Assembly: GCA_018819105.1 (NCBI GenBank)
Contig: JAHJQV010000056.1
Span: 1 to 42,986, forward strand
Direction of reading: 5' to 3'
Source: Gammaproteobacteria bacterium
GTDB taxonomy: Bacteria; Pseudomonadota; Gammaproteobacteria; Xanthomonadales; Wenzhouxiangellaceae
Length of the DNA stretch: 42,986 nucleotides
Part shown: positions 1,104-41,198 of the stretch, in pieces
How positions within the stretch are numbered: the first letter of the stretch is position 1
Layout: the number at the start of each line of letters is the position of its first letter
Made by a program: the position numbers and the translations under genes
The notes under the pieces: model-generated
Database searches by the model: none
The model's input: only the letters and a program-made list of their open reading frames with translations
Told to the model about the DNA's origin: nothing

Positions 1104-1298
1104 ATCAAACACCACCCTGAGCCGTTCCTTGGACGCGGCAAAATCAATTATGCCTTCGTCGCATTGGTAGTGTACCCCGCCATGCTCCTGCAAGATCAGC
1201 CCCTGTGCACAAACCTGGATGCGCTCGGATTGATCCTTCGAGAAACACCTCTCCGGTCAATTTTGGATTTGCTTCGTCCCAACACATGTCGTATATTT

Positions 1299-1317
1299 GT
1301 AATACGTTTTGTATTAC
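1299..1317. promoter_or_regulatory. Palindromic operator before RHH antitoxin
   Basis: A perfect dyad GTAATAC-N5-GTATTAC lies 14 nt upstream of the RHH antitoxin start at 1332. Ribbon-helix-helix antitoxins typically bind such short inverted repeats and repress their own operon. The assignment follows from position and symmetry. Confidence 0.5.
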
Positions 1318-1331
1318 ATCTGGCACTATCA

Positions 1332-1634: not shown

Positions 1635-1975
1635 TGCGCAGGGGCGAAATCCGGGTAGCCAGCTTTAAACCATGGCGCGGCAAAGAAATCGGTAAGGCGC
1701 GACCCTGTTTGATCATGCAGGCAGACTGGCTGACCACGGTGTCGCCAGGCACGCTGATCGTGTTGCCATTGACATCGCAACTCTGGCAGGGCGCGGACAT
1801 GCTGCGGGTTGCAATTAGCCCGCGTGAGCGCTTGCGCAAACCCTCCTGGGTGATGATCGACAAGATTCAGACGCTGGATGCCAGTCGATTCGGTGATGGT
1901 CCGCTGGCGGCCCTGAATGAACCCGAAATGAGCGTTATCGAGCAAAAACTTCAGGCAGTGCTGGGGATGTTGTAG
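1634..1975 (+). CDS. PemK/MazF-family toxin (mRNA interferase)
   Basis: A 113-residue PemK/MazF fold protein. The N-terminal RRGEIRVASFKPWRGKEIGKARPCLI is the diagnostic first strand-loop, with GK.RP as the conserved catalytic-loop motif. PGTLIVLPLTSQ follows at about residues 40-55 and PSWVMIDKIQTLDASRF at about 75-90. The family cleaves mRNA at short sequences. The ATG at 1634 shares one base with the TGA of the RHH antitoxin, so the pair is translationally coupled. A start at 1622 would add four residues but lies inside the antitoxin gene. Confidence 0.88.
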   Translation: MRRGEIRVASFKPWRGKEIGKARPCLIMQADWLTTVSPGTLIVLPLTSQLWQGADMLRVAISPRERLRKPSWVMIDKIQTLDASRFGDGPLAALNEPEMSVIEQKLQAVLGML

Positions 1976-2036
1976 ACGAATTTCCATAAGCCAAAATCAT
2001 CCACAACAACCAAGATTGGCTGACCGCCCGGGCTGC

Positions 2037-2939: not shown

Positions 2940-2980
2940 GGTGCATCATCATGTCTTGACTGACGGTATGTTAACAACAT

Positions 2981-3739: not shown

Positions 3740-3764
3740 AGCGGCTGAAGCGCAGCGCGATTCA

Positions 3765-5291: not shown

Positions 5292-6364
5292 CCTTCGGGC
5301 TTCCCTTCCCGATACAATCCCTCGCGCGTCCAGAACACGTCGGTGCCCGCCGGCTTGCCGAAGTCAGCAACCGAGATCGCGGTCATAATGTCGACCTCGA
5401 GTGACACCTCCTGCTCGTAGCTCTTGAGGGCGGTGCACCGCAGGTGACAACCGGACCGAAAGCGGAACGGCGACTCAAGAAGCTTCTGAATCTTCCAAAG
5501 CGCAAGCGCGACGAGAAACTCCTGCTGGTTCTCCGAGAGACCGACCGTGCTCTCGTCTTTTTTGCGCCCAAATGAGCGGATCAGGCCAACGTCGAGAACA
5601 AACGTCGCGCGAATCGACTCCGCAGTGGCGTCATCAACTGCGAAGATCGGCTGGCCGGAGGTCGTCTTTCCCAACCGGTCGAACTTCACGCCGGAGCGGT
5701 CCACGCGGCCAGCACCGAAGGCTTCGAGGTGTGCCGTCAGGGCGCGCGGGATCTTGATCTGCCACTTCGGGAAGAGTACCCCGTGAACGAGTGAGTTCGG
5801 ATCGACCTCGAAAATGGTCTTGAAGACGTTCCACCACTTGTCGGGTGGCGGGTGTGCCTTCGGGCTCCCGGGCAAAACGATGCCGAACTTGTTGAGAAGT
5901 TCGGCATCGAACTTACCGCCCCCCGTTGCGCCATCGTTATTCAGCACAGCGCCATCCAGGAAATAGGACGACGCGATGCGGTGGCCCTCGGTAAGGCTCG
6001 TGACAACCACCTCGCGCTTGTCATTTGGCAATTTGCCGTCGGCGAGGTCGCCGGTTACACAGCGGATGAAGGGCATTCCATCGAGGTCATCGACCAAGTC
6101 GAGATCGTGAGCGCCGCGCTGGCAGACCGTCTCGAGGTGGTTGGCCATGCTTGCCGCGCTGTCGACGATGCAGACATTCTCGGTGCTGCCGTCCTTGCGT
6201 GGCGCCTTGTAGATGACGTGGCCGATCTCGGGGAACCCGGCAGGCTGGAACCGGTCGCCGGCGATCGGCTCAAGTGTCGCGGTCAGGACGAGCGGCGACT
6301 CACCCTTCAGAACATTGGCGGGCGTGAGCTTCATCGGGGGACTCTTCTTAGCTGCTTCAGACAT
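5288..6364 (-). CDS. csb1: Type I-G Cas7 protein Csb1
   Basis: A 358-residue Csb1, the Cas7-type subunit that forms the crRNA-binding filament. Recognised by the N-terminal LEPIAGDRFQPAGFPEIGH region, the SAASMANHLE segment near residue 65, the SLTEGHRIASSYFLDG block and the late SPFRFRSGCHLRC motif. The ATG at 6364 is chosen because it has a strong ribosome-binding site (GAGGAGAAG) and starts MSEAAKKSP; an open frame continues upstream to 6562 but only inside csx17. It overlaps csx17 by 8 bp and csb2 by 4 bp. Confidence 0.88.
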   Translation of the reverse strand: MSEAAKKSPPMKLTPANVLKGESPLVLTATLEPIAGDRFQPAGFPEIGHVIYKAPRKDGSTENVCIVDSAASMANHLETVCQRGAHDLDLVDDLDGMPFIRCVTGDLADGKLPNDKREVVVTSLTEGHRIASSYFLDGAVLNNDGATGGGKFDAELLNKFGIVLPGSPKAHPPPDKWWNVFKTIFEVDPNSLVHGVLFPKWQIKIPRALTAHLEAFGAGRVDRSGVKFDRLGKTTSGQPIFAVDDATAESIRATFVLDVGLIRSFGRKKDESTVGLSENQQEFLVALALWKIQKLLESPFRFRSGCHLRCTALKSYEQEVSLEVDIMTAISVADFGKPAGTDVFWTREGLYREGKPEG

Positions 6365-8558
6365 GTGCTTCTCCTCTTTGTGGCCGGCGTCGAGGGCGAA
6401 GCCAGCGATTGAACAAGGCCGCCCGATCGCGGTCCTGGATGGTGAACAGCAGGGCCGCAACAAGGCGGTCAGGGTCATGCGTGGCGAAACTCGCGTCGAA
6501 CGTCGCAAGCCGCGCACCGGCCATCGCGTAGCGACTGCGTGCGAGCCGTAGCGCGGCGTCAAGGTTTCCCGCGCGGATCAATGCAACGAGCGAGCGCGCC
6601 GACTTCGTCGTTCGAGCGCCCGTCTCATCCGACAGCAGGTCGTCTGGCGAATGGTCTCGAATGACCAATGAGCGCTGGTCGATGAGTGGTTGGAGCAGCC
6701 CGAGCAACGCCTGCTCGCCATCGGCTCGGGGCACACCGTCCTCCCTGTTGGCGAGCGCACGCACCACTTGCGGAACTCTTCTCCAGTCGAAGAGGGCGAG
6801 TCTCGAGAGCCATGCCGAGAACAGTGACTCGTCGAGATCCCCATCGAGCCAATGCCGAATGTGCGAGACCGTTGCAGGTATTGGCGCACGGCCCCTGGGG
6901 CGTTTGCTCTGGCTCGAGTCCAGTCTTGCCTCCTCGAGGATTTGACGCGAGAGAACCGCGCCGAGAACACGCGCAAGTCTTCCCGGCCCCCATACCCAAC
7001 GCGCTGGGGCTACCTTAACGTGTTCGAACCGTCTCGGTTGGGTCTTCCAATCATATTCGTACTTGCCGTTCTGCGCGCGGGCCCACTCCACGCCGAAGCG
7101 AAAGGCCGCAAACGGCAGCGACTCGGGAAAGGCTGACACGAGCGACAAGGCAAGCCGTGCCTCCACGCCAGGCTGTTCATCAGCGAACAACGAAGGTAGC
7201 CACTCAATCGGCAGCGGCTCCCAACGGCTCTTGCCCGCTCGGAAACTCCGGTTGCGATCGATGCGATCCAGCGCAGTAACGATCGCGTCTAGCAGCGCGA
7301 TGCCCGCTTCGGAGCGATTCGGCTCCGCTGCGACGTCGAGGAGCGCTGATTCGATCGGACCGCGGAGTCCGACGAAGCGCTTGCCGTCCTGCGGGAAGCC
7401 GCGCTGCTCAATCAGGGCGGTGACGCGCTCAAGCGTCGATGAGGTTGCCCTGCTCGCCAACTCAGGATCGATGTCGAGAGAGAAGCGAGCCTCCAATCGG
7501 GGCTCGAATGTGTTGGCGCTTGTCGTTCTGCCTAGCGAAAAGCGACGAAACTCGCGGACGCCGGCGTCCACTCCTCGCTGTCGAATAGCCGTCGCGAATG
7601 CAGAGGGCGTCACAGCGCCGCGCCCGTGCATCTCCGCTCGTCCACGCGAGAACAGAGTTGTCGCCTCAGCAAGGGTCATTGGGCGAACCCAGAGGGGCGT
7701 CCAGATCTCGCCCAGTATGCGACCGGCCTCGCCAGCAGCCACGGGAGCAACCGGCTGGGTGACGAAGGGGAACGCGCCGATGGCACGCGCACGAACGCCG
7801 AGGCGCCGAGAAACACTACCAGCGAGAATCGACAGCCCTTCGCACGCCAGCACCATGGCCCAAGGCGAGAGATACCCCTCGCGTGCAGGGGCTTGGCCGC
7901 TGTTGTACAGTTTTGTGGCTTCGCTAAACCAGGAGCCTGCTGCAAGCTTGTCAAGCAGCCAAGTGAGCGGCTGCCCGAGGAGGAAGGCGTTTAGTTCGGT
8001 TCGCCGGATATCAGGAGCGGCGACCGCGTTGCCGTCTCGGGCCAGCTTTTTCTTTCCCCGGCCCTTAGCTACCTTGGGTGCAGCTGTCAGTGCATCGACG
8101 GCTTGCTTCCAGCCAGCCGAAAAGTCACGACGCCCCGCGTTCCCTCCGCTGCCAAGGAGCGGGTTGAAACTCACTCGCGCGTGAGGGACCGCATGTGCAG
8201 CGAAGAATTGAATCTGGCTCTCCGGAGCCTCAGCTTGCCACAGCGCTAGCGGAGTCCCCGACTTGGCCTTCGTGCCTTTCTTTTGCGCGTCAGACCACGC
8301 CTTGTCATACTGGGTCCACTCGCGCTTGCTGAAGTCCGAGTCGACCTGTGTATTCGCGATCCGCACCAACTCGTCGAGCAGTTCATCGAGCGTCTGCGGT
8401 CCGCCGACCACCTGCAACACCTCGTCTCGCCACGCGATTCGCGTGCTCGGCCATCTTCGAGACAGCACCCGCAAGAGACCGAGCGACGCGAGGTAGTTGC
8501 CGAGGCTGTCGGGAGTCAGACCGGGCAGGGCGAGGGCAGAGAGCCGAACTTCAATCAT
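6357..8558 (-). CDS. csx17: Type I-G Cas8-like subunit Csx17
   Basis: A 733-residue protein with the Csx17 signature start LALPGLTPDSLGNYLASLGLLRVLSRRWP. It is followed by a long arginine-rich body with LLGQPLTWLLDKLAAGSWF (about 220-238) and an FAAFRFGVEWARAQNGKYEYDW segment in the C-terminal half. Csx17 acts as the large (Cas8) subunit of type I-G Cascade, so PAM recognition and Cas3 recruitment are the expected roles. It begins in a 4-bp overlap with the KilA-N gene and ends 8 bp inside csb1. Length agrees with the family. Confidence 0.85.
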   Translation of the reverse strand: MIEVRLSALALPGLTPDSLGNYLASLGLLRVLSRRWPSTRIAWRDEVLQVVGGPQTLDELLDELVRIANTQVDSDFSKREWTQYDKAWSDAQKKGTKAKSGTPLALWQAEAPESQIQFFAAHAVPHARVSFNPLLGSGGNAGRRDFSAGWKQAVDALTAAPKVAKGRGKKKLARDGNAVAAPDIRRTELNAFLLGQPLTWLLDKLAAGSWFSEATKLYNSGQAPAREGYLSPWAMVLACEGLSILAGSVSRRLGVRARAIGAFPFVTQPVAPVAAGEAGRILGEIWTPLWVRPMTLAEATTLFSRGRAEMHGRGAVTPSAFATAIRQRGVDAGVREFRRFSLGRTTSANTFEPRLEARFSLDIDPELASRATSSTLERVTALIEQRGFPQDGKRFVGLRGPIESALLDVAAEPNRSEAGIALLDAIVTALDRIDRNRSFRAGKSRWEPLPIEWLPSLFADEQPGVEARLALSLVSAFPESLPFAAFRFGVEWARAQNGKYEYDWKTQPRRFEHVKVAPARWVWGPGRLARVLGAVLSRQILEEARLDSSQSKRPRGRAPIPATVSHIRHWLDGDLDESLFSAWLSRLALFDWRRVPQVVRALANREDGVPRADGEQALLGLLQPLIDQRSLVIRDHSPDDLLSDETGARTTKSARSLVALIRAGNLDAALRLARSRYAMAGARLATFDASFATHDPDRLVAALLFTIQDRDRAALFNRWLRPRRRPQRGEAHV

Positions 8559-9442
8559 TTTCGCTTCCCCTTCTTGGTCGTCGCATGCCCCGGGCGGGGG
8601 CTGCTTGAACCTTGCTGCCCGGCGTCCAGGCGTTGCACCGTCATCGATGAAAGCAGCGAGCGCATCTGCACGATGGCAATGGCGTTGAGCTGTTCGAGTC
8701 GCTCAGCTGCCGGCAGCCGCTGTTGGATCAGCACGGAGTTGAGGCTTTCGAGGTTCGAAAGCACAACGAGCTGCTCCAGCGTGGCGTGGTCTCGCATGTT
8801 GCCCGACAGCTTCGAGTTCTCCTTACGCCACTCGGCTGCGGTCTTGCCGAACAGTGCGACGTTCAACAGATCCGCTTCAGAGGCGTAAACGAAAGATGTC
8901 TGGGCTTTGGTGAGCGTGGGCGGGATGAGGTGCTCTTGAATCGCATCCGTGTGGATGCGGTAGTTTATCTTCGCCAGCGTGCGCTGAAAGCTCCACTCGC
9001 GGGAGCTGCGCGCTGCCTCGTCGTCCTTGAGGCGCTGGAATTCTTTGATGAGATAAAGCTTGAACTCGGGGCTGAGCCACGATCCGAACTCGAAGGCGAT
9101 GTCCCGATGAGCATACGTACCGCCATAACGCCCTGCTGCGGCATAAATCCCGATCGCGCTTGTTTTCGTGGCCCATTTCTTCACTGACAAGAAGAAGCTG
9201 TTACGGCCGGCCTCGTTTCTAATTCCCTCGAATTCGAGGGAATTAAACCTTGGGTTGTTGAGCTGCTCCCACACCCCAAGAAAGATCACAGTATCCTTAT
9301 TCTTCAGCCACTGCTCGATGAGCGCGCCTTGACCATCAAAGTTGCGAACCATATCCGAGAGCGAAATGTAGTCATGCTCGTTGCGTGTTGCGATGCTGAC
9401 GGTCGTTCCCTGCACGACGATACTGCGGCTTTTGGTAGTCAT
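8555..9442 (-). CDS. KilA-N domain protein embedded in the cas operon
   Basis: A 295-residue protein. The N-terminal ~110 residues form a KilA-N domain: IVVQGTTVSIATRNEHDYISLSDMVRNFD, then WLKNKDTVIFLGVWEQLNNPRFN and AGRYGGTYAHRDIAFEFGSWLSPEFKLYLIKEFQRL. KilA-N is a DNA-binding domain known from phage antirepressors and large DNA viruses. The C-terminal part is helical and ends in a lysine-rich tail. It sits between cas3 and csx17 with 4-bp ATGA overlaps on both sides, so it is co-translated with the effector. I do not know KilA-N as a standard type I-G component. A 26-bp perfect palindrome lies inside the gene at 9220-9245. Roles as regulator, accessory nucleic-acid binder or passenger are all open. 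Confidence 0.85.
   Translation of the reverse strand: MTTKSRSIVVQGTTVSIATRNEHDYISLSDMVRNFDGQGALIEQWLKNKDTVIFLGVWEQLNNPRFNSLEFEGIRNEAGRNSFFLSVKKWATKTSAIGIYAAAGRYGGTYAHRDIAFEFGSWLSPEFKLYLIKEFQRLKDDEAARSSREWSFQRTLAKINYRIHTDAIQEHLIPPTLTKAQTSFVYASEADLLNVALFGKTAAEWRKENSKLSGNMRDHATLEQLVVLSNLESLNSVLIQQRLPAAERLEQLNAIAIVQMRSLLSSMTVQRLDAGQQGSSSPRPGHATTKKGKRK
9220..9245. repeat. 26-bp perfect palindrome within KilA-N gene
   Basis: The half-site TAATTCCCTCGAA is followed by its exact reverse complement, centred on GAATTC. In the coding strand it specifies FNSLEFEGIR, in a region where KilA-N proteins have a conserved N.eF segment, so protein constraint may explain part of it. A perfect 13-bp dyad in coding DNA is nevertheless unusual. 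Confidence 0.75.
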
Positions 9443-12243
9443 GGTCGTGTTCCCAAGTCGGCAGGAGTGACACGCCTGCTCGGTCGTTCACTCGCTCGCC
9501 AGTCGGCGATGCGGACGAGCGCCTCCAGGTACGCCAACTCGAACGGCCCAAGCTGACGCGGCTCCGTTTCCGGCACAACGCCGGCGTCGCTTGTCTCTTT
9601 GGGGCGCCACGGGCCGAGCAAGTCGGAGACCAGGCCTGTCCAGCCGTGACCGGTCAAGACGAACGAGTCACCTTCCCAGCGACCGTCGGCACCGTCCTTT
9701 GCGATGGAGAATTCCAGTGGCCACTGGTCGGCACCGATCACGAGCTTGTCCTGATCGCGTTGCACGCCGAACACGTCGTTTCCCTCGTCAGTCGTCGAGC
9801 GCAGGACGGTGCGCGCCTTCCCATGGTGCGCGGCGGCCAGGTAGACCGCGAGCGCCGGGTACGGCTTGGTCTCGCTGGCGCGGTAGTTCCTCCACATCGC
9901 CAGAGCGGAGGCGACCTCGTGGCGCAGACCGGGGCGAAACTGGAGGTGTCCTGCCCAGCGCACGCCTGCGACACTGCGCAGCGTCTTCAACTCGCCGTCG
10001 CTGAGTTTTTCGTCGATGGCCCACCGAAGACGAACGACGTCTTCGCGACCCCTTCGGCGAGATTCATCCGGCAGCGCGTGCGCCTGCGAGCGAAGGTTCG
10101 TGAACGCCGTCCGGACAGCGGAGTCGTCGCCGACCACGTCCGCGGCGAAGACGCGCGGGCTCTTGGCGAGCAGCGCGTCGGGGATGCCAGAGCGATCGGG
10201 CAATGCGGCCTGCCACTGGGGGTGCGCCTTGCCGAGATCGTGATGCCCTGAAGCCTCGACGACCGCTTGTCGCGCGTCGCCAGTCACAGAAAGCGCCCCG
10301 CAGAGCGTCTCGGCCTCGGCTCGCGCGTCCTGGAGGTGGTCTTCGAGTCTTGACCAGTAGCCGATCTCGGTCCAGGCATCGTCTCGCAAGGCGGCACCGC
10401 GTCCGGCGCGAGGCGCTTCGGTGAGTGCGTTCGCCTTGTCACCCGTCCAGCCTTCGGTGCCGTCGTAGCCGCCGACGTCGCGCTTCAGCATCAAGAGCAT
10501 ACCGGGACGGATATCCCAGTGGTTCACTCGCGCCCAGCGGTCAGCCTCGTCGTCCCACAGCCATGCCTTGCCTTTGTTGGACTCAAGCATCTTCTGAACC
10601 CGAACGAAGGAGACGGGGCAGCCCTCCTTCGCGGGCTCCAGCAGGGGCCCGTCGAGTTCTTCACCGCGCGGCGGAGAGTCGCCCGACCACTCGCGCCAGA
10701 AGACCGTCGCGTCGAGGTCGGGGTCGGTGCCGCGCACGAAGGCGCTGACGTCGGTGAAGCCGCCGTGCACGTCACGCTCCGTGGAAAAGAGCCCGTGGAC
10801 GTCGAGTGCACGCGGAAGAGCGCTTGGCTTGGGCTGAAGCGCTTCCTTGAGTTCCTTTGCGCAGGTCTTCGTCAGCTCGGCGATGGCCTCCGCGAAGGGG
10901 CTCTCCTGCGAAAAAGAAGCAAACGCCGCCACGAGCTTCTTCGCGCGCGCAATGTCTACCATCTCGTAAGGCCCGATTCGTTCGAGCTTCTTGTTGCCGG
11001 CCTGCTTGGGCCTCTCCCAGACCCACGCACTTGCGTCCTGGTCGTCTCCCTTTCGGTTGAGACGACCGAGACGCTGCAGCATCGACGGCCACGGCGCGAG
11101 CTCGGTCCAGAGGTGATGCGCCGAGATGTTCACGCCGGCTTCGATAACCTGGGTGCTCACGCAAATGAGGCCAGGGTCGCCATTGGGCAGGTTGCCCGCC
11201 TTGCGGTTGACGTCAAACTCGAGCAGACGTTGCTCGTGACGCATGCGATCCTCACGACGGAACCGCGAAGTCAACAGAACCTTGTACGACGGCGCTAACG
11301 CGCGGTACACCTCGCGCGCCATGTCAACGGTGTTGCAGATGACAAGCGAGAGCGTGCCGCTTACATGCTTTTCCTCAACGTCGTTGGCGATGGCATCCGG
11401 CGTGACCGTCGCATTCGACGATTTCGCGGAGCCTCGCTTCTTCGAGCCTGTCGTGCTGCCCGATACGGCCGGCTGCCACCACGCCACCGGTCTTTTCGCA
11501 TCTCGCCACCATGCGAGCCCGGTGTCGGCCTCAAAGGTGGTTTTCAGTTCCACTTCGAATTCAATCTGCTCAGATGACGGCTCGCCGAGTCCATCCCGTG
11601 TTCGATCGGTGGTACTGAGGAACGAGGTGCCGACGGTTGCGCTCATCCATGTCGTCAGGCAAGGCTTCAGCGGCGGGAACCGTCTTCTGCGCATCCAGTC
11701 GAGCTGTGACGTCGTCCAGAGTCCCGGCCCCATGAGCTGAACCTCATCGATGAGCCACCGGCAGTCGTTGTTGAGAAAACCGAAGTGGACCGGCCACTCA
11801 AATCGGCTCATGGCGTAGCCACGATTGAGTGCGCGCGAGAGAAGCTGATCCTGCGTGCCCACGAGAACCCAGGGCTTGTCAGGCTGGCCAACCCATTCGT
11901 CCTCGATTGCACCGCCCATGAGTTGATGAACGCCAACCTCAAGCTCCGGATTGCTTGTCTTTAGCGCATCGAAGTAACTTGCCAGCCGTTGCGCAGTCTG
12001 GGTCACGAGACTACGCATCGGCAGACAGACCACGAGGTGACGGGGTTCGGGCTGTTCGTCTACCAACAACCGCCAAGCCCAAGCCAACGCAACCTCCGTC
12101 TTGCCGAGGCCCGTTGGAACAGGGAGCACGTCGGGCAAGCCATTCATTGCTACCAGCAGTTGCCAACTGTAGGGGGTGAACCCGTCGGTTGCGGTCTCAA
12201 AGAAGTCTTCGAAGGATGCCTCTCTAGGACATTTCGTAGTCAT
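9439..12243 (-). CDS. cas3: Type I-G Cas3 helicase-nuclease (helicase-HD order)
   Basis: A 934-residue protein with an N-terminal superfamily 2 helicase and a C-terminal HD nuclease, the reversed order that marks type I-G Cas3. Helicase motif I is PVPTGLGKTE (41-50), motif II is WLIDEVQLMG (about 165), and motif VI is in the LQRLGRLNRKG stretch. HD nuclease residues are EASGHHDLGKAHPQWQ (about 660-675), LAAAHHGKAR and LVRIADWRASE near the end. It degrades target DNA after recruitment by Cascade. Its ATG overlaps the stop of the upstream nucleotidyltransferase by 4 bp, and its stop overlaps the KilA-N start by 4 bp. Confidence 0.92.
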   Translation of the reverse strand: MTTKCPREASFEDFFETATDGFTPYSWQLLVAMNGLPDVLPVPTGLGKTEVALAWAWRLLVDEQPEPRHLVVCLPMRSLVTQTAQRLASYFDALKTSNPELEVGVHQLMGGAIEDEWVGQPDKPWVLVGTQDQLLSRALNRGYAMSRFEWPVHFGFLNNDCRWLIDEVQLMGPGLWTTSQLDWMRRRRFPPLKPCLTTWMSATVGTSFLSTTDRTRDGLGEPSSEQIEFEVELKTTFEADTGLAWWRDAKRPVAWWQPAVSGSTTGSKKRGSAKSSNATVTPDAIANDVEEKHVSGTLSLVICNTVDMAREVYRALAPSYKVLLTSRFRREDRMRHEQRLLEFDVNRKAGNLPNGDPGLICVSTQVIEAGVNISAHHLWTELAPWPSMLQRLGRLNRKGDDQDASAWVWERPKQAGNKKLERIGPYEMVDIARAKKLVAAFASFSQESPFAEAIAELTKTCAKELKEALQPKPSALPRALDVHGLFSTERDVHGGFTDVSAFVRGTDPDLDATVFWREWSGDSPPRGEELDGPLLEPAKEGCPVSFVRVQKMLESNKGKAWLWDDEADRWARVNHWDIRPGMLLMLKRDVGGYDGTEGWTGDKANALTEAPRAGRGAALRDDAWTEIGYWSRLEDHLQDARAEAETLCGALSVTGDARQAVVEASGHHDLGKAHPQWQAALPDRSGIPDALLAKSPRVFAADVVGDDSAVRTAFTNLRSQAHALPDESRRRGREDVVRLRWAIDEKLSDGELKTLRSVAGVRWAGHLQFRPGLRHEVASALAMWRNYRASETKPYPALAVYLAAAHHGKARTVLRSTTDEGNDVFGVQRDQDKLVIGADQWPLEFSIAKDGADGRWEGDSFVLTGHGWTGLVSDLLGPWRPKETSDAGVVPETEPRQLGPFELAYLEALVRIADWRASERPSRRVTPADLGTRP

Positions 12244-12935
12244 TGATCACCACCAACACGGTACTTGTTGGATGTACATCGCATTTTCCTAAGTCGCTTG
12301 CATACTTCCCTGAGATCATCAAGACATTCAAGCCGCTGGCGCACGGAAAGCTTCTTGGCCTGTATGAGCTGCATTTTTCGGGCACCTTCAAAGCTCGTCA
12401 TGCTCCAGAGGAAGTCTTCGTCATTTTCATCGATGTGACTGTAATCCTCTTGCAGCCACTGGAGGTGCTGAATAGCGTCCAGGTCCCGGAGCCGATTGGT
12501 GATTTGCTTCTGCCGGATTAACGTGGCGATGCAAATGAAGCAGACTTCCACATCTGGCAGAATTTCGCTACGCAAAGCCTGTGCATGTTCCTGGGCGAAA
12601 TCCATGTCGGAAGTCACAAACAGGTTTACGTGAGTCGACTCATCGTCAACGCATTGAAAACCGATCAAGTCCGCGACTGGCTGCTTCCCGCTCATGTGCA
12701 TTTTACTGGCGGCGAGCGCCTCGGCGTCAATCTGTGTAGCAGAGTGATAGCCAATCGTAGCAAGTGCCTGAATTGCGAAAAGTATGTTGTCAGCTTTTAC
12801 ATCGATCGCCAGATCAATGCCGGGCGTGTAGTGGATATAGCCATGCGCGTTGACAGCGACACCACCAGCAACCAGGTAGCTAACCTGTGCGCGGTGGAGC
12901 GCCTGGATGACGGTATCGAATGCAGACATCCTCAT
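12240..12935 (-). CDS. Nucleotidyltransferase-fold protein leading the cas operon
   Basis: About 231 residues with a minimal nucleotidyltransferase (Pol-beta) core: YLVAGGVAVNAHGY, then YTPGIDLAIDV, where the family normally has T-x-D-x-D. Here the first Asp of the pair is Gly, so only part of the metal site is retained and activity is uncertain. The C-terminal IRQKQITNRLRDLDAIQHL segment is typical of the AbiEii/MNT-like group. Candidate starts are ATGs at 12947, 12935 and 12929; 12935 has GAGG six bases upstream. Its stop overlaps the cas3 start (ATGA), making it the first gene of the operon. Base composition is visibly more AT-rich than in the cas genes. Confidence 0.7.
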   Translation of the reverse strand: MRMSAFDTVIQALHRAQVSYLVAGGVAVNAHGYIHYTPGIDLAIDVKADNILFAIQALATIGYHSATQIDAEALAASKMHMSGKQPVADLIGFQCVDDESTHVNLFVTSDMDFAQEHAQALRSEILPDVEVCFICIATLIRQKQITNRLRDLDAIQHLQWLQEDYSHIDENDEDFLWSMTSFEGARKMQLIQAKKLSVRQRLECLDDLREVCKRLRKMRCTSNKYRVGGDQ

Positions 12936-13246
12936 CTCAAACCTCATGCTGGTGCAAGCGATGTCCTGACGTTATCGGACTTGTTGCTGATTGCTGACTG
13001 ATCTTGCATGACTCCCCTGGAAGTGCTGTCCCTGTCTGTGACGCCTGAGCGGGTGAATCATCCCACCGGCAAGCGCCTTGTATGATTCTGCACTTAAATG
13101 CGCTTGTGTGCAACCGGCTTTCTCGGGTTGGCCGCAAAGGATTGCTGTGGTGGCTTCAGCTCGTGTCTATATTGCTGAAATCAACGCTGTGGAGCGCCAG
13201 CGTCACCGCTGGCATTTGTCCAATAATCTCTGCATACAGAAGGTTT

Positions 13247-13275
13247 CCGGATGCGCTGCGCTTATCCGACCTACA
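13247..13275. repeat. REP-like sequence
   Basis: The sequence CCGGATGCGCTGCGCTTATCCGACCTACA is a well-known style of repetitive extragenic palindrome in Gammaproteobacteria (CCGGAT pairing with ATCCG around a short loop). It lies between the cas operon promoter region and the SEC-C gene. The rest of 12948-13318 shows no gene I can support. Confidence 0.5.
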
Positions 13276-13318
13276 TGCCGGATTGTCGTACTGGCCCGAT
13301 CAGTGATGTGACGGTACG

Positions 13319-13439
13319 GTTCGTGTGCGAGCACGCTCCTACGATCAGCGTTGTTTTGGTAGCGAGATCAACCGATCTGTTCGCGTGCTGGCATGCGCCT
13401 GCAGGCAGCGTTGTTTTGGCTGTGTGATCAGAAAGCAGT
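13319..13439. repeat. Two copies of a ~60-bp repeat
   Basis: Two adjacent units begin GGTTCGTGTGCGAGCACGCTC at 13319 and GTTCGCGTGCTGGCATGCGCC at 13379. Each has a GCGTGC..GCACGC-type dyad, then TTGTTTTGG and GTGATCA/GAGATCA. They are the same family as the array at 14996-15277, on the other side of the SEC-C gene. Confidence 0.7.
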
Positions 13440-13468
13440 TGTCGTCCCCGGTGTGCAGCTGATCGTGT

Positions 13469-14863
13469 TCAATCCGGCGGCAGGCCAAGCTGGTCCCATA
13501 AAAACCGGTAGGAAACCGGTTCACGCCCCTGTTCTCTGGCCGCTTCATTTTCTCCGCTCTGGTAGCTGCGCAGCAGGCCTTTGACGCGTTCCATGCCACT
13601 GGCGGTGCTAATGGCTTCACGCGGGGTCTTGTTTTGCAGCACCGGAATGGGTTCGTCAGCCCAGTTGGCGTATTGCTTGTGGATAAACTCGGTGATGATT
13701 GATGACATGTCATCCGCATCAATGTCCGGGCTTATGGCTTGCTGCCGTGGGCTGCTGTCTGGACCACCGATGCTGCCGATGGGATCAGACAGTTCCCTGG
13801 TCAGATGGCGCACGCTGTCGCCAGCCAGTTGTTCAAACCAGGGGCGGCCTTCATCGGCCAGTTTGAGTGTGCGGCAGAACATGCTTAGACGATCAGGATG
13901 ACGATCTTTGGGTTTGGCGAAGTTAAGCGTCAGGCGCGAGCGCGTCATGCCATCGTCATGTTCTTCCAGATAATCCCAGCTGTACTCACCGGTCTCCTCC
14001 ATCTCATCACTGGCGTCCAATGCTGCCATCAGTGCATCGCGATCGGTGATCTGGTAGTGATCGGTCACCAGCAGCACAGGTTCGCCGCTGGAGACGTCCA
14101 TGATCGGCGGCATTAACGGTGCAGCCACCAGTTGCTCGAACCAGCGCTCAACCAGCCACTGTTCAAAAATCAGTTCAGGGTCGTGTTGTGGAAATTTTTT
14201 GCGCGCTGCCTGCAGCATTTCGGGAGCCAGCCCGAGTAAAGCGCCAATGAACATATTGCCGATCGGATAGATGGCACCGGTCAGCTCCAGATGATCATCG
14301 ACCCGCACAATGCGGCAGGCCAGGTAATCGCCAGCGGCCAACGTCTGGCTGCCAGTTTTTTCCTGCACCGTCAGGGGTTCGGCGCCTTCTTTGATGGCAT
14401 CAATCAGGGTAAGTCCATCGCCCGGTCGTGATTCGGTGATGGCATACAAGCGCAAAGGATTACTTTCGAACTGGCGCAGATAGTCTTGCTGTGCCTCGCT
14501 CAGCCGTGGTCCGCCGGGGCCGAGCAGCAAATCCTGCACCACAACGTATTCATCGTTGATCAACAACTCGCCGCGTGCCAGCAGCCATTCGAGCATATTG
14601 ATCTCGATCATGCCCCAGAGTTCTTCAGAGATGTCTGACAGATCCTGATCCTTCTCAGGCCAGAATCTGCGCAATAAGAGGTCTTCGAATTCGCGCTGGA
14701 ACGGTTTGCGGTGCATTTTTTCCAGCCATTTCAACGAGCGCTTGACGGCTTGCTCTGTGTCACCGGCAATGGGGTGGACGGCTGCTGGTTTGCCATGACA
14801 TTGTTTGTACTTGCGCCCGCTGCCGCATGGGCAGGGTTCGTTGCGACCGATCTTGTTGCTCAT
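13469..14863 (-). CDS. SEC-C metal-binding domain protein
   Basis: A 464-residue protein beginning with a SEC-C zinc motif, [17 protein letters not shown] (about residues 8-24), the CxCx8CH metal site first known from the SecA C-terminus. The remainder is a large acidic and hydrophobic domain with no motif that I can name; it ends [12 protein letters not shown] start it at the ATG at 14863 because the SEC-C motif follows at once; the frame stays open to 14977 but that part covers low-information sequence. No export signal. Stand-alone SEC-C proteins of this size are common in Proteobacteria and mostly uncharacterised. Confidence 0.75.
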
Positions 14864-14995
14864 GCGCTGCTTGCTGTTGGAATGCGTGACCAGTGTACTG
14901 CCCGGATATGACCTGCGTCCATGGGTGGCCGGTTGCATTTCCACTCGGAGCTTCAGCGAGCCAATCATTGTCGCCATTTGCCACCCTGCTCATCT

Positions 14996-15277
14996 GGTTC
15001 GCGTGCCGGCATGCTCCTGTAATCAGCTTTGTTTTGGCTGCTTGATCAAGCGCTGGATTCGCGTGCAAGCACGCTCCTACAATGAGCGCTGGTTTGGCAG
15101 CGAGATCTACCGTTGGATTCCGTGCGAGCACGCTCCTACAATGAGCGCTGGTTTGGCAGCGAGATCTACCGTTGGGTTCCGTGCGAGCACGCTGCTGCAA
15201 TAAGCATAGTTCTGGCGGTGTGATATGCCTATGGATCGCCTACGGGCACGCTCTTATCAATCTGAGCGATGTCCATG
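14996..15277. repeat. Tandem array of ~60-bp REP-like units
   Basis: Units start at 14996, 15056, 15116, 15175 and 15234 (60, 60, 59, 59 and a partial 44 bp). Each contains a REP-like dyad such as GTGCGAGCACGCTCCTAC and a TTTGGCAGCGAGATCTACC block. Units 2 and 3 are almost identical and units 1, 4 and 5 are diverged. Because the whole unit repeats, including the part between the dyads, this is not a CRISPR array. It occupies the space between SEC-C and the crt genes and no gene is visible in it. Confidence 0.8.
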
Positions 15278-15346
15278 GGTGACCGGCTGCAGCATTGCTC
15301 AGCAGGAATACGAGCGAATCATTCGCGGCACCGGGTGCCAGCAAGT

Positions 15347-15469
15347 TTACTTCTGATCCTGGTCTGCCTGCTGGCGGCGTCTGATGGTGCGGTTAACCCG
15401 CACCAGCTCCCACACTGCCAGCGCAACGACGCTGCCAGCCAGCAGCAGTTCTATCAGCATGCCCGACAT
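15347..15469 (-). CDS. Predicted 40-residue single-pass membrane protein downstream of crtB
   Basis: A 40-residue frame starts 6 bp after the crtB stop. It has a short hydrophobic stretch, MLIELLLAGSVVALAVWELV (residues 4-23), then a basic segment RVNRTIRRRQQ and an acidic end. This is the shape of a small single-span membrane protein with a cytoplasmic basic tail, similar in layout (not in clear sequence) to CcmD-type proteins. The ribosome-binding site is weak, but the position directly after crtB in the superoperon favours co-expression. I do not recognise the family. Confidence 0.5.
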   Translation of the reverse strand: MSGMLIELLLAGSVVALAVWELVRVNRTIRRRQQADQDQK

Positions 15470-26109: not shown

Positions 26110-27573
26110 TCAATTGGGAAACTCGGCCATACCGAATTTCGCCTGTTGCGATCTTGTAGCACCGCTGCCGGCGTACTTGACCAATGGGCCGATCACTGCC
26201 AGCGCAGCAAACAGCAAAACAATTTCCAGATAATAGACAAAGCCATACCCGGTGGATGGTGATTGCAGGGCCTGTCCCAGTGCCCCGCTGAGTGCCAGCG
26301 AGGAAACCAGATCACGCACGCCGCCGCCGATGGCGACCGCCAGACCCACCGCCGTTGCCTGCACCGCACCCCATGCACCCAGTGCGATACCGGCCTGCAT
26401 GTGCTCGGCCAGCCGCATCGCCGCAGTCAGTGTGCCGACCGCAAACAAACCACCCCCAAATCCTATCATCAAAGTGCCGACGCGGAACAGATTGGCCGCC
26501 TGCAGCACGTCCGCCAGCAGCACCGCGCTGAACGCGGCGATGCCGACCAGCACACCGATCGCCGCCAGCAGATTGGCATCGGTGCCATGGCGCAGTTTCT
26601 GCGCGGCAAACATGAACGCCAGCAGCATACCGCCTGCCAACAGCGCGGTCAGCAGTGTGGTCTGCGCCACACTGAGACCAAGTATTTCACCACCGAACGG
26701 CTCCAGCAGCACGTCCTGCATGCTGAACGCAGCGCTGCCTATGGCCACTGCCAGCAGCAGACGCAGCGCACCGCTCTGCGCCAGCAGTTCGCGCCAGGCG
26801 GCCCGAAACGGCACGCGTTCGCGATCGGCCCGGGTCTGTTGTGGCTGGCGTGCTTCCTGTTTCCACAGGGCGATGCCATTGAGCACCACGGTGACAGCGG
26901 CCGCGCCCTGCACCACCTTGATCAGCTTGAGTTGGGTGAAATCGCTCAACAGCCAGCCAAACAGCAGCGCACTGCAGAACATGCCCAGCAGCAGCATCAC
27001 GTACAGCAATGCCACCACCTGGGCGCGGTTGTCGTCGTCGGCCAGGTCGGTGGCCAGTGCCAGACCGGCGGTCTGTGTGGTGTGCAGGCCGGCACCGACC
27101 AGCAGAAATGCCAGCGCAGCGCCAATCTGACCATACAGCACCGGACCATGCGTGTCGCCGGACAGCACCAGCAGGGCAAATGGCATGATCGCCAGACCGC
27201 CGAACTGCAGCATGGTGCCGATCCATATGTAGGGCACGCGACGCCAGCCCAGCGCCGAGACGTGCATGTCCGAACGGTGCCCGATCAGGGCCCGGAACGG
27301 TGCCACCAGCAAGGGCAGCGAAATCATGCTGGCGACCAGCCAGGTGGGCACCAGCAACTCGACAATCATGACCCGGTTCAGGGTGCCGGTCAGCAACACC
27401 ACCGCCATGCCCACAGAAACCTGAAACAGCGCCAGGCGCAACAACCGGCGCAGCGGCAGCCGTTCGCTGACAGCATCGGCAAACGGCAGAAACTGTGTGC
27501 CGATCTGCGACCACATACCAGCCAGACGCGCGTTGACGCGTTGCAGGGTCGCTTGGCTGGCGCGCTTGTTCAT
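26110..27573 (-). CDS. lhaA: LH1 assembly protein LhaA (PucC/BCH-family MFS)
   Basis: A 487-residue membrane protein with about 12 spans. The diagnostic FQVSVGMAVVLLTGTLNRVMIVEL early loop and RALIGHRSD motif place it in the PucC/LhaA branch of the MFS, which delivers bacteriochlorophyll or assists LH1 assembly. ATG 27573 overlaps the bchM stop by 4 bp; an upstream extension to 27642 lies inside bchM. It sits between bchM and puhA as in Rhodobacter. A paralogue of the same family is at 39843. Confidence 0.92.
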   Translation of the reverse strand: MNKRASQATLQRVNARLAGMWSQIGTQFLPFADAVSERLPLRRLLRLALFQVSVGMAVVLLTGTLNRVMIVELLVPTWLVASMISLPLLVAPFRALIGHRSDMHVSALGWRRVPYIWIGTMLQFGGLAIMPFALLVLSGDTHGPVLYGQIGAALAFLLVGAGLHTTQTAGLALATDLADDDNRAQVVALLYVMLLLGMFCSALLFGWLLSDFTQLKLIKVVQGAAAVTVVLNGIALWKQEARQPQQTRADRERVPFRAAWRELLAQSGALRLLLAVAIGSAAFSMQDVLLEPFGGEILGLSVAQTTLLTALLAGGMLLAFMFAAQKLRHGTDANLLAAIGVLVGIAAFSAVLLADVLQAANLFRVGTLMIGFGGGLFAVGTLTAAMRLAEHMQAGIALGAWGAVQATAVGLAVAIGGGVRDLVSSLALSGALGQALQSPSTGYGFVYYLEIVLLFAALAVIGPLVKYAGSGATRSQQAKFGMAEFPN

Positions 27574-28280
27574 GCCGATTTCCGCAGCACCATGCTCTGT
27601 GAAGTGTAGAAGCCACTGCTGATGCGTTCGCTGCGGCCGCACTGCCAGCCCTGCAGCGGCGCTGCGCTGGCGCAGGCCCGACGCAGGCTGCGTTCTGCCA
27701 CCGGCACAATGGCCGGGGCGCGATGTTCACGATGTGGAATCAGACGCCCGCTCAGATGCATCAGTGTCAACGCCGGGGTGCGCGGGGCAAAGGTGAACAC
27801 GATGCTGTCACGCACCCGCGGCGTCAGCGCGGCGAGCACGGCGATGATGTCCTCCAGCGCATAATGAATCAGCGAATCCATCGCCAGCACATGGTCAAAC
27901 TCGCCCAGACTGCTGTCGAGCATGTCGCCACTGCAGAAGCGGATGCTGCCGGCACTGGCGGCAGCGTCGTTGCCGTGCCGCTGTTCGGCGATCTCAACCA
28001 GACTGGGCGAAATGTCGATGGCGACCACTTCGGCTCCACGTCGGGCCAGCTCGATGGCACCAGCGCCGGTGCCACAGCCGGCATCCAGCACGCGCAGGCC
28101 GGCCAGCTGATGCGGCAGGCTGTCCAGCAGCAAAGCGCGCATGCGATCACGACCGGCGCGGACGGTGCGGCGGATGCCGCTGACCGGCGCGTCCGAGGTC
28201 AACCTGGCCCAGGTTTCGGCCGCGGTCTCGTCGAAATACGTGCGCAGCTGGCTGCGGCGTCTGGCGTAACTGCTGTCCAT
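27570..28280 (-). CDS. bchM: Mg-protoporphyrin IX O-methyltransferase BchM
   Basis: A 236-residue SAM-dependent methyltransferase. The glycine-rich motif I is VLDAGCGTGAGA (64-75), the acidic motif VVAIDISPSLVEIAEQR follows, and DHVLAMDSLIHY is the BchM/ChlM signature. The early YFDETAAETWARLTSD segment is typical. It methylates Mg-protoporphyrin delivered by the chelatase, before AcsF. Confidence 0.94.
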   Translation of the reverse strand: MDSSYARRRSQLRTYFDETAAETWARLTSDAPVSGIRRTVRAGRDRMRALLLDSLPHQLAGLRVLDAGCGTGAGAIELARRGAEVVAIDISPSLVEIAEQRHGNDAAASAGSIRFCSGDMLDSSLGEFDHVLAMDSLIHYALEDIIAVLAALTPRVRDSIVFTFAPRTPALTLMHLSGRLIPHREHRAPAIVPVAERSLRRACASAAPLQGWQCGRSERISSGFYTSQSMVLRKSA

Positions 28281-34591: not shown

Positions 34592-36402
<1,811 letters not shown>

Positions 36403-36649: not shown

Positions 36650-37320
36650 ATGGTGATCCGCGATTCCGGGGTTCCTCAAATGAGACAGAGTCAAAGCAGC
36701 AATGATGTGAACAGAGACCAGGCGGTGGACAGCACAAGCGGACAGAACAGCCAAGGCAACAGCGCAAGCCAGCGCACTCAGCATTCCAGTGCCGAGATGC
36801 TGATGCTGAGCCAGACGCTGGAAAGAGAGCTGATCCCGCGCCTGATGGAAGCACTCAAAACCTCCACTGAAAACGACATCGCTCTGCAGCGACCGTCTGA
36901 CGGCGATGACACGCAGACCGATCCCGACGCCGGCAGCAGGGTCAGAACCCCATCCGCCACCGAGGTCGAGGAATTCATTCACCTGATCATACACCACGAT
37001 GCCAGCATCGGTCGCGGATACGTGCAGGCACTGCGCGAACGCGGCATGACCCTGCCGGTGATTTACATTCGTTTGACGCGGTTGGCGTATCCATCAGCGC
37101 AGAACGCAATCAGCAGGCGCTGCATGATCAGATCACCAGACTGCGAGAAGTTTCACGCAACAAACAGCTGCTGATCGTGGCCGGCGGCAACCTGATCAAC
37201 TGCCACCCGGAAAAAGCCCAGGAACTGGGTGCCGACTGCGCTGCCCGAGATGGTGACGGCGCGGTGACCCAGATTACTGAATTACTGCAATGCAAACAGG
37301 AACTCTCCCAACAACCATGA
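36650..37320 (+). pseudogene. Degenerate aerR/ppaA (PpsR antirepressor), internal deletion and frameshift
   Basis: The first frame (from ATG 36650) has a Gln/Ser-rich start, then the AerR/PpaA N-terminal signature LSQTLERELIPRLMEAL and VEEFIHLIIHHDASIGRGYVQALRERG, ending LPVIYIRL near 37073. At that point the family should continue LLAPAAR.LG..W. Instead another frame takes over directly with FDAVGVSISAERNQQALHDQI (from 37072), SRNKQLLIVAGG and HPEKAQELGADCAARDGDGAV, the C-terminal B12-binding half, ending TGA 37320. The central ~75-90 residues, including the E-x-H region, are missing and the frame shifts. Without correction the first frame ends at 37174. It lies directly before ppsR, the usual place for this gene. 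Confidence 0.7.
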
Positions 37321-37366
37321 ACAGCATCTGGAACAGGCTGTGGTCGCGAGAGCTGAGCTAAGTCGC

Positions 37367-38797
37367 ATGGATGGCGCCTCAGCAATTGCCTTCGAGCACC
37401 CGGAGGAATTTTTCCAGCATCTGGCTGCGAGCACCACTTCGGCACTGATGACTGCCGCCAGTGACATTGCGCTGGTATTGGATGCCAAAGGCGTGATCCT
37501 GGACTTCACCCTGCGTCACGCCGGTGTGTTCGTTCAGGACCGCAGCAGCTGGGTGGGCAAAAAGTGGCTGGAGACCGTCACCGCCGAAAGCCAGCACAAG
37601 GTGGAGACCCTGCTCTCTGATGCCAATCCCAACCAACCGTCCAAGTGGCGCCAGATCAACCATCTGGGCATGGAGCAGGAGGATATTCCGGTCTCCTACA
37701 CCACCATCAAGACCGCCGAGAACGGCAACACCATCGCCATTGGCCGCGACCTGCGGCCACTGTCCACGCTGCAGCAGCGCCTGCTTGATGTGCAGCATTC
37801 CATGGAGCGCGATTTTGCCAACATGCGGCATGCCGAAATGCGTTACCGCATGCTGTTTCAGATGTCATCCGAAGCCATTTTCATTCTGGACGCCGCCACC
37901 CGGCAGATTCAGGAGGCCAATCCGGCGGTGATGCAGATGCTGGAGCGCAGCGAAAAGCAGCTGATCGGCAGGGTGTTTCCCAAAGCGCTGGACGATGAAT
38001 GCCGCAGTGACATCGACCAGTTGCTCAGCGACGTCCGGCAATCCGGTCAGAACAGCGACATCCTGGTCCGCGCCAAGGGTTCCAAACGCCCGCTGATTCT
38101 GTCCGCAGCACTGATCCGCAATGAGCGGGGTTCATCGTTCCTGATTCGCCTGCGTCCGCAGCCGGGACATGACGGTGCCAAGCTGTCCACCGAATCATCC
38201 CAGATGCTGGCCATCATCGAGCAGTCCACCGATGGTTTTGTCATCACCGATGCCGATGGCCGCATCCTCAGCGCCAACCAGGCGTTTCTGAACATGTGCC
38301 AGCTCAACACCCGGCAGCAGGCCATCGGCGAATCGCTGGATCGCTGGCTGGGACGGCAGGGCATTGACATGAACGTGCTGAAGAACAACCTGGCCAATCA
38401 TGGTTCGATACGCCTGTTCCAGAGCAAGCTGTACAGCGAGTTCGGCAGCGAGCTGGATGTCGAGCTGTCCGCCGTGTCGGCGCTGGACAGCAGCTACCCA
38501 TGTCTGGGTTTCAACATCCGCCACATCGTGCAGAAGCAGCGCGCCAGCGGAGACAGCGAATCGCCGTTGCTGCGGCCGATATCCGAGCTGACGCAGATGG
38601 TGGGCAAGGTATCACTGAAGGAACTGGTTTCAGAAACCACCGAAGTGATGGAAAAGCTGTGCATCGAAACCGCGCTCAAGCTGACCAACGACAACCGCGC
38701 ATCGACCGCGGAAATGCTTGGCCTGAGCCGGCAAAGCCTGTATGTGAAGCTGCGCCGTTATGGTCTCGGGGATCTGGAAGACAGCAAGAACCCGTGA
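37367..38797 (+). CDS. ppsR: Transcriptional regulator PpsR/CrtJ
   Basis: A 476-residue repressor of photosynthesis genes. It has three PAS-like segments (about 25-130, 160-270, 285-390; for example IEQSTDGFVITDADGRILSANQAFL) and a Fis-type helix-turn-helix at the C-terminus, LTNDNRASTAEMLGLSRQSLYVKLRRYGL (about 438-466). Cys432, in KLCIETALKL just before the helix-turn-helix, corresponds to the redox-active Cys reported in R. capsulatus CrtJ. ATG 37367 is used; GTG 37340 is an alternative start. It would bind TGT-N12-ACA-type sites, probably including 36505-36538. Confidence 0.93.
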   Translation: MDGASAIAFEHPEEFFQHLAASTTSALMTAASDIALVLDAKGVILDFTLRHAGVFVQDRSSWVGKKWLETVTAESQHKVETLLSDANPNQPSKWRQINHLGMEQEDIPVSYTTIKTAENGNTIAIGRDLRPLSTLQQRLLDVQHSMERDFANMRHAEMRYRMLFQMSSEAIFILDAATRQIQEANPAVMQMLERSEKQLIGRVFPKALDDECRSDIDQLLSDVRQSGQNSDILVRAKGSKRPLILSAALIRNERGSSFLIRLRPQPGHDGAKLSTESSQMLAIIEQSTDGFVITDADGRILSANQAFLNMCQLNTRQQAIGESLDRWLGRQGIDMNVLKNNLANHGSIRLFQSKLYSEFGSELDVELSAVSALDSSYPCLGFNIRHIVQKQRASGDSESPLLRPISELTQMVGKVSLKELVSETTEVMEKLCIETALKLTNDNRASTAEMLGLSRQSLYVKLRRYGLGDLEDSKNP

Positions 38798-38890: not shown

Positions 38891-39817
38891 ATGAGCGACG
38901 CCACCACAGTCGATGACAAGCACAACCCGTCGCTGCCGACCGCCAGCAAGCCGCTGCCGCTGTCGGTGCTGGAGCTGCTCAAACCGATCACCTGGTTTCC
39001 TCCGATGTGGGCGTTTGCCTGCGGCCTGGTGTCGTCCGGACTGGCGCTGCAGCAGCGCTGGCTGCTGGTGGCTGGCGGCATCGCCCTGACCGGACCGCTG
39101 GTGTGCGGCACCAGCCAGGCGGTCAACGACTGGTTTGACCGTCATGTCGACGCCATCAACGAACCCAATCGCCCGATTCCCTCCGGCCGCATTCCCGGAC
39201 GCTGGGGACTCTACATTGCCATCATCTGGACACTGCTGTCGCTGCTGGTGGCCGCCGCGCTGGGCCAATGGGTGCTGGTCGCCACCTGCTTCGGTCTGCT
39301 GCTGGCCTGGGCCTACAGCGCACCACCGGCGCGACTGAAACTGAACGGCTGGTGGGGCAACGCCGCCGTCGGCATCTGTTATGAAGGGCTGCCCTGGTTC
39401 ACTGCGGCAGCGGTCATGGCCGGCACGCTGCCATCCATGCCAGTGATCTGGATGGCGCTGCTGTACAGCGCTGGAGCGCACGGCATCATGACACTGAACG
39501 ATTTCAAGGCCATTGAGGGTGATCGTCAACTGGGCATCCGCACCCTGCCGGTACAGCTCGGCCCGGAGCGCGCGGCGGTGTTTGCCTGCTGGGTCATGCT
39601 GGTGCCGCAACTGCTTGTCTCCGGCCTGATGCTGCACTGGGACCGGCCCTGGCACGGGCTGGCGATTTTCATCATCGCCTTTGCCCAGTGGCTGCTCATG
39701 CAACGGCTGCTGCAGGACCCGGAAAAGCATGCCCCATGGTACAACGCCACCGGCATCACTTTGTACGTTTCCGGTATGATGGTGGCAGCATTCGCCATTC
39801 GTCATTTGGGCCTGTAA
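38891..39817 (+). CDS. bchG: Bacteriochlorophyll synthase BchG
   Basis: A 308-residue UbiA-type membrane prenyltransferase that esterifies bacteriochlorophyllide with geranylgeranyl diphosphate. The Asp-rich motif is NDWFDRHVDAINEPNRPIPSG (79-99), and the second region is TLNDFKAIEGDRQLGIRTLPVQLG. About eight spans. It follows ppsR by 93 bp and precedes a PucC-family gene by 25 bp. Confidence 0.96.
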   Translation: MSDATTVDDKHNPSLPTASKPLPLSVLELLKPITWFPPMWAFACGLVSSGLALQQRWLLVAGGIALTGPLVCGTSQAVNDWFDRHVDAINEPNRPIPSGRIPGRWGLYIAIIWTLLSLLVAAALGQWVLVATCFGLLLAWAYSAPPARLKLNGWWGNAAVGICYEGLPWFTAAAVMAGTLPSMPVIWMALLYSAGAHGIMTLNDFKAIEGDRQLGIRTLPVQLGPERAAVFACWVMLVPQLLVSGLMLHWDRPWHGLAIFIIAFAQWLLMQRLLQDPEKHAPWYNATGITLYVSGMMVAAFAIRHLGL

Positions 39818-39842: not shown

Positions 39843-41198
39843 ATGAACCGGACCGCAGCCGCATCCGCACAACACTACCTGGGCTGGGCCGGCATCGTGC
39901 GGCTTGGCCTGGTGCAGACTGCGCTGGGTGCGATTGTGGTGCTGACCACCTCAACGCTGAACCGCGTCATGGTGGTCGAACTCGGTCTGCTGGCCATGCT
40001 GCCAGGCGCGCTGGTCGGCCTGCACTATGCGATTCAGCTGACGCGCCCCAAACTCGGCTATGCCTCTGATGTGGGCGGTCGGCGCAGCCCGTGGATCATC
40101 GGCGGCGTCGGCGTGCTGGCCCTGGGCGGCGTGCTGGCCGCGCTGGCCACTGCCTGGATGAGCACGCATTTGATGGCGGGCCTGATCCTGGCCGTGCTGG
40201 CGTTCACGCTGATCGGGCTGGGTGTCGGCGCTGCCGGCACCTCACTGCTGGCCCTGCTGGCAAAAACCGTGGCACCGCAACGGCGCGCTGCTGCCGGCAG
40301 CATAGTCTGGGTGATGATGATCGCCGGCTTCATTCTCACCGCCGGCATTGGCGGACATTTTCTGGAACCGTTCAGTCTGCAGCGGCTGATCACGGTCACC
40401 GGCACGGTCTGTGCCCTGGCTTTCGTGCTGACGCTGCTGGCCATCGCCGGCATCGAGCAGAACCGCTCGGCTGCGGCCACCGCCAGCATGGAACAGAACA
40501 AGCTGCCGTTTCGCCAGGCGCTGGCGGAAACCTGGTCAGACCCGCGTGCGCGCCAGTTCACCATTTTCGTGTTTGTGTCCATGCTGGCCTACTCGGCCCA
40601 GGATCTGATTCTGGAACCGTTCGCCGGACTGGTGTTCGGCTATTCGCCGCGCCAATCCACACAGATGGCCGGTCTGCAGAACGCCGGTGTGCTGCTGGGC
40701 ATGATCGTGGTGGCGCTGGGCGGTACCTTTCTGCGCGGCCGGCTGGGATCACTGCGACTGTGGACCACCGCTGGCTGCATTGCCTCCGCGCTGGCCTTGT
40801 TCGGACTGTTGCTGGGCGGTCAGATTGCCAGCCATGGTGGCGACTGGCCGCTGCAGATCAATGTGTTTGCGCTGGGTCTTGGCAATGGCGTGTTTGCAGT
40901 GGCTGCCATCGCCTCAATGATGGCCCTGGCCGGCGAAGGTGGTGAGCACCGCGAAGGCGTGCGCATGGGTTTGTGGGGCGCAGCGCAGGCGTCGGCGTTC
41001 GGCATCGGCGGCTTTATCGGTGCTGTCGGAGTGGATCTGTTCAATCATTTTTATCAGACTCCGGCGCACAGCTATGGCGCCGTGTTTCTGATCGAAGGGC
41101 TGGTGTTTTTGCTCGCCGCCTGGCTGGCATCGCGCATTCGTCAGCAGACACAACTGCCGCAGTCAGACCGTCTGCACGAGGCCATAGCAGCCAGTTGA
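39843..41198 (+). CDS. PucC/BCH-family MFS transporter between bchG and bchP
   Basis: A 451-residue, 12-span MFS protein with the family signature GAIVVLTTSTLNRVMVVELGL (about 25-45), PKLGYASDVGGRRSPWI and DLILEPFAGLVFGYSP. It corresponds to the gene called orf428 between bchG and bchP in Rhodobacter. A role in bacteriochlorophyll delivery or antenna assembly is likely by homology with LhaA and PucC. About 30% of the residues are Ala, Gly or Leu, as expected for a membrane protein. Confidence 0.92.
   Translation: MNRTAAASAQHYLGWAGIVRLGLVQTALGAIVVLTTSTLNRVMVVELGLLAMLPGALVGLHYAIQLTRPKLGYASDVGGRRSPWIIGGVGVLALGGVLAALATAWMSTHLMAGLILAVLAFTLIGLGVGAAGTSLLALLAKTVAPQRRAAAGSIVWVMMIAGFILTAGIGGHFLEPFSLQRLITVTGTVCALAFVLTLLAIAGIEQNRSAAATASMEQNKLPFRQALAETWSDPRARQFTIFVFVSMLAYSAQDLILEPFAGLVFGYSPRQSTQMAGLQNAGVLLGMIVVALGGTFLRGRLGSLRLWTTAGCIASALALFGLLLGGQIASHGGDWPLQINVFALGLGNGVFAVAAIASMMALAGEGGEHREGVRMGLWGAAQASAFGIGGFIGAVGVDLFNHFYQTPAHSYGAVFLIEGLVFLLAAWLASRIRQQTQLPQSDRLHEAIAAS

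Follow-up and report, generated by a model that had tools for sequence, protein, structure and literature searches.

The window analysed here is a stretch of 42,986 nucleotides (G000:C49:1-42986) from an assembly of 3.14 Mb with a rated completeness of 98.68%, and it carries a photosynthesis gene cluster. Within this cluster, the remnant of an aerR/ppaA gene is flanked on one side by bchF, encoded on the minus strand, and on the other by ppsR and bchG on the plus strand. AerR/PpaA is a vitamin-B12-based light sensor that is normally the partner of the main photosynthesis repressor CrtJ/PpsR, and the remnant adjoins ppsR/crtJ as expected of AerR/PpaA by descent. The divergent neighbour bchF (35869-36402, minus strand) is intact and matches TIGR02020 over positions 1-144 of 145. 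Downstream, ppsR/crtJ (37340-38797, plus strand) is likewise intact; with its PAS and Fis-type helix-turn-helix (HTH_8) regions it matches TIGR02040 over positions 1-442 of 442 with 439.7 bits, above the curated cut-off of 275.4, which identifies the product as a full-length PpsR/CrtJ. It is followed by an intact bchG (38891-39817, plus strand; TIGR01476 positions 3-283 of 283). The order bchF-aerR-ppsR is common to most of the related loci that we collected (the best 80 of 402, and four more; see below).

The remnant consists of two halves on the plus strand. The N-terminal half (36680-37069) comprises 130 codons, is recognised both by an AerR profile (positions 8-101) and in an alignment with 77 homologues, and retains its reading frame and the PRL motif; an in-frame ATG upstream, at 36650, would lengthen it by 10 codons. 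Two bases, 37070-37071, form the deletion junction between the aligned halves, where some 102 codons are absent. The C-terminal half (37072-37320) holds 82 codons and a stop, encodes the second half of the B12-binding fold and lies in another frame, which is open from 37072 to its stop at 37318-37320. The N-terminal frame continues past the junction as foreign sequence up to a stop at 37172-37174, so that the currently translatable open frame (36650-37174, plus strand) specifies 174 residues, the final 34 of them out of frame. The C-terminal half also gives a weak match to PF02310 (positions 50-119 of 121), under the curated cut-off.

To characterise both halves we used a profile, denoted A1, of 280 positions built from 15 intact AerR homologues; locus L011 was omitted for its stop. 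Against the whole of the window's own genome at E<=10, A1 yields exactly two matches, both at this locus: 36749-37075 (profile positions 8-101 of 280, E 9.1e-16) and 37066-37302 (positions 200-278 of 280, E 1.2e-19). Both are far above chance, and both ends of the protein are thus AerR by descent. They also align to the intact AerR of Rhodobacter capsulatus (PDB 7te2), the solved structure that the family profile matches best. A functional AerR would occupy a single continuous frame across the full domain; here the halves are in different frames, with profile positions 102-199 missing. An earlier sequence-only reading had recognised the two halves and placed their direct join, in different frames, at about 37072; on these points, and in its coordinates for the locus, it was right.

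The extent of the loss was gauged against 84 loci, 80 of them reached through BchN (the best 80 of 402 encoding a relative) and four from genomes of the same order reached through PpsR. Among the open reading frames of these loci there are 79 AerR profile matches; 77 of them were aligned with the halves from the window, and the two that scored under 160 bits, L021 (cut by its contig end) and a short upstream piece of L011, were omitted. In 76 of the 77 homologues, the middle segment is present and 99-110 residues (median 103) separate the last aligned N-terminal from the first aligned C-terminal residue; the 77th, L076, runs off its own contig. The 75-90 central residues that the initial reading took to be lost are therefore too few: compared with intact R. 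capsulatus AerR, about 102 are missing and the remaining halves are out of frame. Conservation follows the same boundary. Among 22 columns conserved in at least 90% of the 77 homologues, 13 belong to the lost segment and are all absent, and the nine in the retained halves are all kept, as expected for a clean, recent deletion.

Mapped onto R. capsulatus AerR by alignment to 7te2, with the offset set by residue numbers quoted in passages of PMC9144470 and PMC6199135, the lost segment should span approximately residues 81-182. It contains several features described for AerR in that organism. His145, within the ExHxxG motif, serves as the lower ligand of cobalamin, and its replacement by Ala largely disrupts cobalamin binding by the short isoform (PMC6199135); a cap formed by W94 and F101 shields the upper ligand side, and, in a structural model, the fourth cap helix could form bonds to the linker of CrtJ through Thr105, Ser109 and Gln112 (PMC9144470). 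By the alignment to 7te2, the His145 motif with its axial histidine, the W94/F101 cap and the CrtJ-contacting fourth cap helix with Thr105, Ser109 and Gln112 all map inside the lost segment. Among the 76 homologues that possess this segment, it bears a PxxxHxxG motif in 69 and a VT in 73. The proposal that aerR is broken is borne out, with the motif-bearing segment absent and the halves out of frame; as assembled, the gene cannot yield AerR.

Such a lesion is unusual among the loci collected (the best 80 of 402, plus four). A PpsR match above 200 bits is found in 71 of the 84, and AerR is present in all 71, in a single open frame in all but one; loss of aerR here runs against this trend. In L074, some 4 kb separate aerR from ppsR, and L077 has two copies; L065 and L090, whose scores are identical, may represent the same genome. 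In 11 of the 13 other loci the contig ends near bchN (six with all or part of AerR, five without), and in the last two, L009 and L061, neither AerR nor PpsR is matched within the 3.6 kb and 10 kb, respectively, upstream of bchN. L009 (1-3600) also has bchF, beside which toxin-antitoxin-like and dehydratase-like frames, as judged by eye, occur instead; in L061 (1-10000) bchN is present, and the upstream stretch is free of AerR and PpsR matches. The single exception to an uninterrupted frame, L011 (1552-2508, minus strand), comes from a betaproteobacterial metagenome-assembled genome, in which aerR is interrupted by an in-frame TAG, located after the PRL helix and before the cap, and is thereby split into an upstream piece and a downstream frame holding the entire B12-binding part. 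L011 is possibly a second aerR lesion, or an error of that assembly. No homologue examined lacks the middle segment or is divided between two frames in this way. A search of 369 genomes of the class with A1 gives matches in 26 at E<=1e-10, the window's own among them. Four others (G716, G503, G515 and G653; E <1e-60) span most of the AerR profile and have no stops; the remaining weaker ones, one of which contains a TAG, may be other B12-binding proteins. Two adjacent AerR pieces occur in no other genome of the 369.

No intact second aerR or displaced middle piece was detected in the assembled genome with A1 at E<=10, which returns just the two halves; the possibility of a second copy elsewhere, raised by the earlier reading, is answered in the negative at this threshold. 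A PF02310 search of the same genome at E<=1 produced three matches that pass the cut-off (the open frames have 602, 1258 and 1151 residues) and two weak ones. The PF02310 search is insensitive, because it missed the known C-terminal half, and A1 is the better test. There is likewise no PF04940 match in this genome at E<=0.1 that would indicate a BLUF (AppA-type) substitute.

The remainder of the cluster appears sound. Of 20 other cluster genes tested, 18 have NCBIfam matches that are essentially end to end; 17 of these exceed the cut-off for one or more such models, and crtB remains below that of its best model (395.6 against 500). The two genes that match no model at E<=1e-10 are long open frames, at 26110-27642 and 39843-41198, which we take to be lhaA-like and pucC-like, respectively. 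Contig C54 carries two complete Photo_RC frames resembling pufL and pufM. Judged by these comparisons, aerR is the one tested cluster gene that is clearly broken.

In PpsR, five of the six linker residues that face AerR are kept, and the sixth is changed from Tyr to Phe, a change also found in 8 of 71 PpsR homologues; this retention does not suggest a long period without AerR. Among 73 columns with a conservation of at least 90%, PpsR departs from the consensus at 8, high but still in the range of the 71 homologues (0-10). At the 95% level it shows six departures, four of which are concentrated at residues 420-456 (38597-38707), in and just before the HTH; two of the columns concerned are invariant across the 71 homologues. 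If anything, these departures weigh slightly against a very recent loss. Sites of the form TGTN12ACA, as recognised by PpsR, number 10 in the window against 8.05 expected, with none between bchF and aerR, and are uninformative here.

We interpret the locus as a recent loss-of-function allele of aerR/ppaA, which arose by deletion of some 300 bases and deprives PpsR of AerR, and assign this reading a probability of roughly two in three. A deletion of this length, not a multiple of three, would have taken out the last part of the helical cap together with the first half of the cobalamin-binding Rossmann fold, and the product would now be at most 174 residues long, the last 34 foreign, devoid of the axial histidine and of the PpsR-contacting helix. 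The deletion itself probably exists in the organism. The main competitor, unlikely but deserving real weight, is that the organism's aerR is intact and that the contig dropped some 300 bases, for example by mis-joining or strain merging. The assembly is fragmented into 68 contigs, AerR accompanies PpsR at every locus with a full PpsR match in our sample, and both halves are undecayed, just as they would be had a stretch been dropped in assembly. Nevertheless, the junction is internal to the contig, no long direct repeat lies across it, and at E<=10 none of the other contigs carries the missing piece. General indel noise is an unlikely source too, the neighbouring cluster genes being clean.

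Two further explanations accept the sequence as it stands and would preserve some function. A truncated N-terminal product could still contribute to regulation, its N-terminal extension being one possible means, given that this half keeps its frame and PRL motif and that the N-terminal extension of the long R. capsulatus isoform matters for CrtJ regulation (PMC9144470). Such a product would, however, end in 34 foreign residues and would lack the helix modelled in that work to contact CrtJ through Thr105, Ser109 and Gln112, and we regard a residual role as very improbable. Even less credible is a compact AerR made by ribosomal frameshifting from one half into the other. The frames on the two sides of the junction are open and conserved, but no classical slippery heptamer is apparent there by eye, the read-through product would still be without the axial-histidine segment and the contact helix, and no homologue examined has such a form, given the 99-110 intervening residues in 76 of 77 and the absence of paired AerR pieces from the other class genomes searched.

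If aerR has indeed been lost by deletion, the event is probably recent, but no close relative with the cluster turned up by which to date it or to tell it from an assembly error: PpsR is present in only 1 of 43 genomes of the family, the window's own (E<=1e-30), and in 5 of 398 genomes of the order (E<=1e-50). Among the genomes searched, no other lineage of the family has a detectable PpsR. In the one genome of the same genus (88% complete), neither PpsR nor BchN was found, and the N-terminal half of aerR, sought in 41 genomes, matched only the window's own. From PpsR in 1 of 43 genomes and its absence, with that of BchN, from the same-genus genome, the distribution of the photosynthesis cluster within the family appears sporadic.

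A PpsR that operates without AerR is not new in kind, and the surprise is limited by described precedents. In the passages of PMC8877833 drawn on here, Halorhodospira has a cluster with ppsR and without ppaA, ppaA is described as absent from Chromatiaceae, and among phototrophic gammaproteobacteria it is assigned to Ectothiorhodospira only. AerR is in fact also encoded at, for example, L016, L066 and L068 (labelled Woeseiaceae, Gammaproteobacteria and Nevskia), a wider distribution than those passages state. An account of the NOR5/OM60 clade likewise mentions crtJ and, in the part consulted, not ppaA (PMC3176799). The present locus resembles Halorhodospira-type gammaproteobacteria in having PpsR without a functional PpaA/AerR in the cluster; unlike Halorhodospira, for which the same source reports ppaA as absent, it keeps a legible remnant. 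This is its distinctive feature, and it suggests a more recent loss than in phototrophs devoid of ppaA. A targeted literature search, judged by titles and the openings of abstracts, turned up no report of natural aerR pseudogenes.

By analogy with Rhodobacter, the deletion would leave the cell with no cobalamin photoreceptor and PpsR without AerR input, to act on redox or other cues. The outcome, if the deletion is real, would be that of laboratory R. capsulatus aerR-deletion strains, in which no AerR stands beside an intact CrtJ/PpsR; in that species, more than 1500 genes change expression under photosynthetic conditions when aerR is deleted (PMC6199135). Translational coupling between aerR and ppsR could change as well, as the stop at 37174 now ends translation about 165 bases ahead of the first listed ppsR start at 37340. 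More tentatively, and on balance doubtfully, the lineage may represent a natural recent aerR knockout in which PpsR control runs, or is being rewired, without B12-dependent light input while phototrophy is otherwise kept. If true, PpsR behaviour without AerR would be open to study outside laboratory mutants.

Elsewhere on the contig, a type I-G (I-U) CRISPR-Cas set occupies 2981-12243, with matches to Cas56g (csb2), Cas7g (csb1), Cas8g (csx17) and Cas3g and a PDC-S22 protein between Cas8g and Cas3g. Cas1 and Cas2 are not named among the matches listed for the ten proteins tested in this interval, and no CRISPR-like array is seen in window positions 1-15400. Two Cas56g-type frames adjoin, at 2981-3739 and 3765-5291; one gives a full match (3-448 of 449) and the other reaches only the C-terminal half of the model (224-447), as a partial duplicate or a split second copy would. 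Further along, 13319-13430 and 14997-15238 contain six imperfect copies of a 52-nucleotide unit, 67-83% identical to the reference copy. Within the two clusters, which flank a SEC-C-like open reading frame, the copies are spaced 59-60 nucleotides apart, and presumably they are akin to the REP-type intergenic repeats that they resemble.
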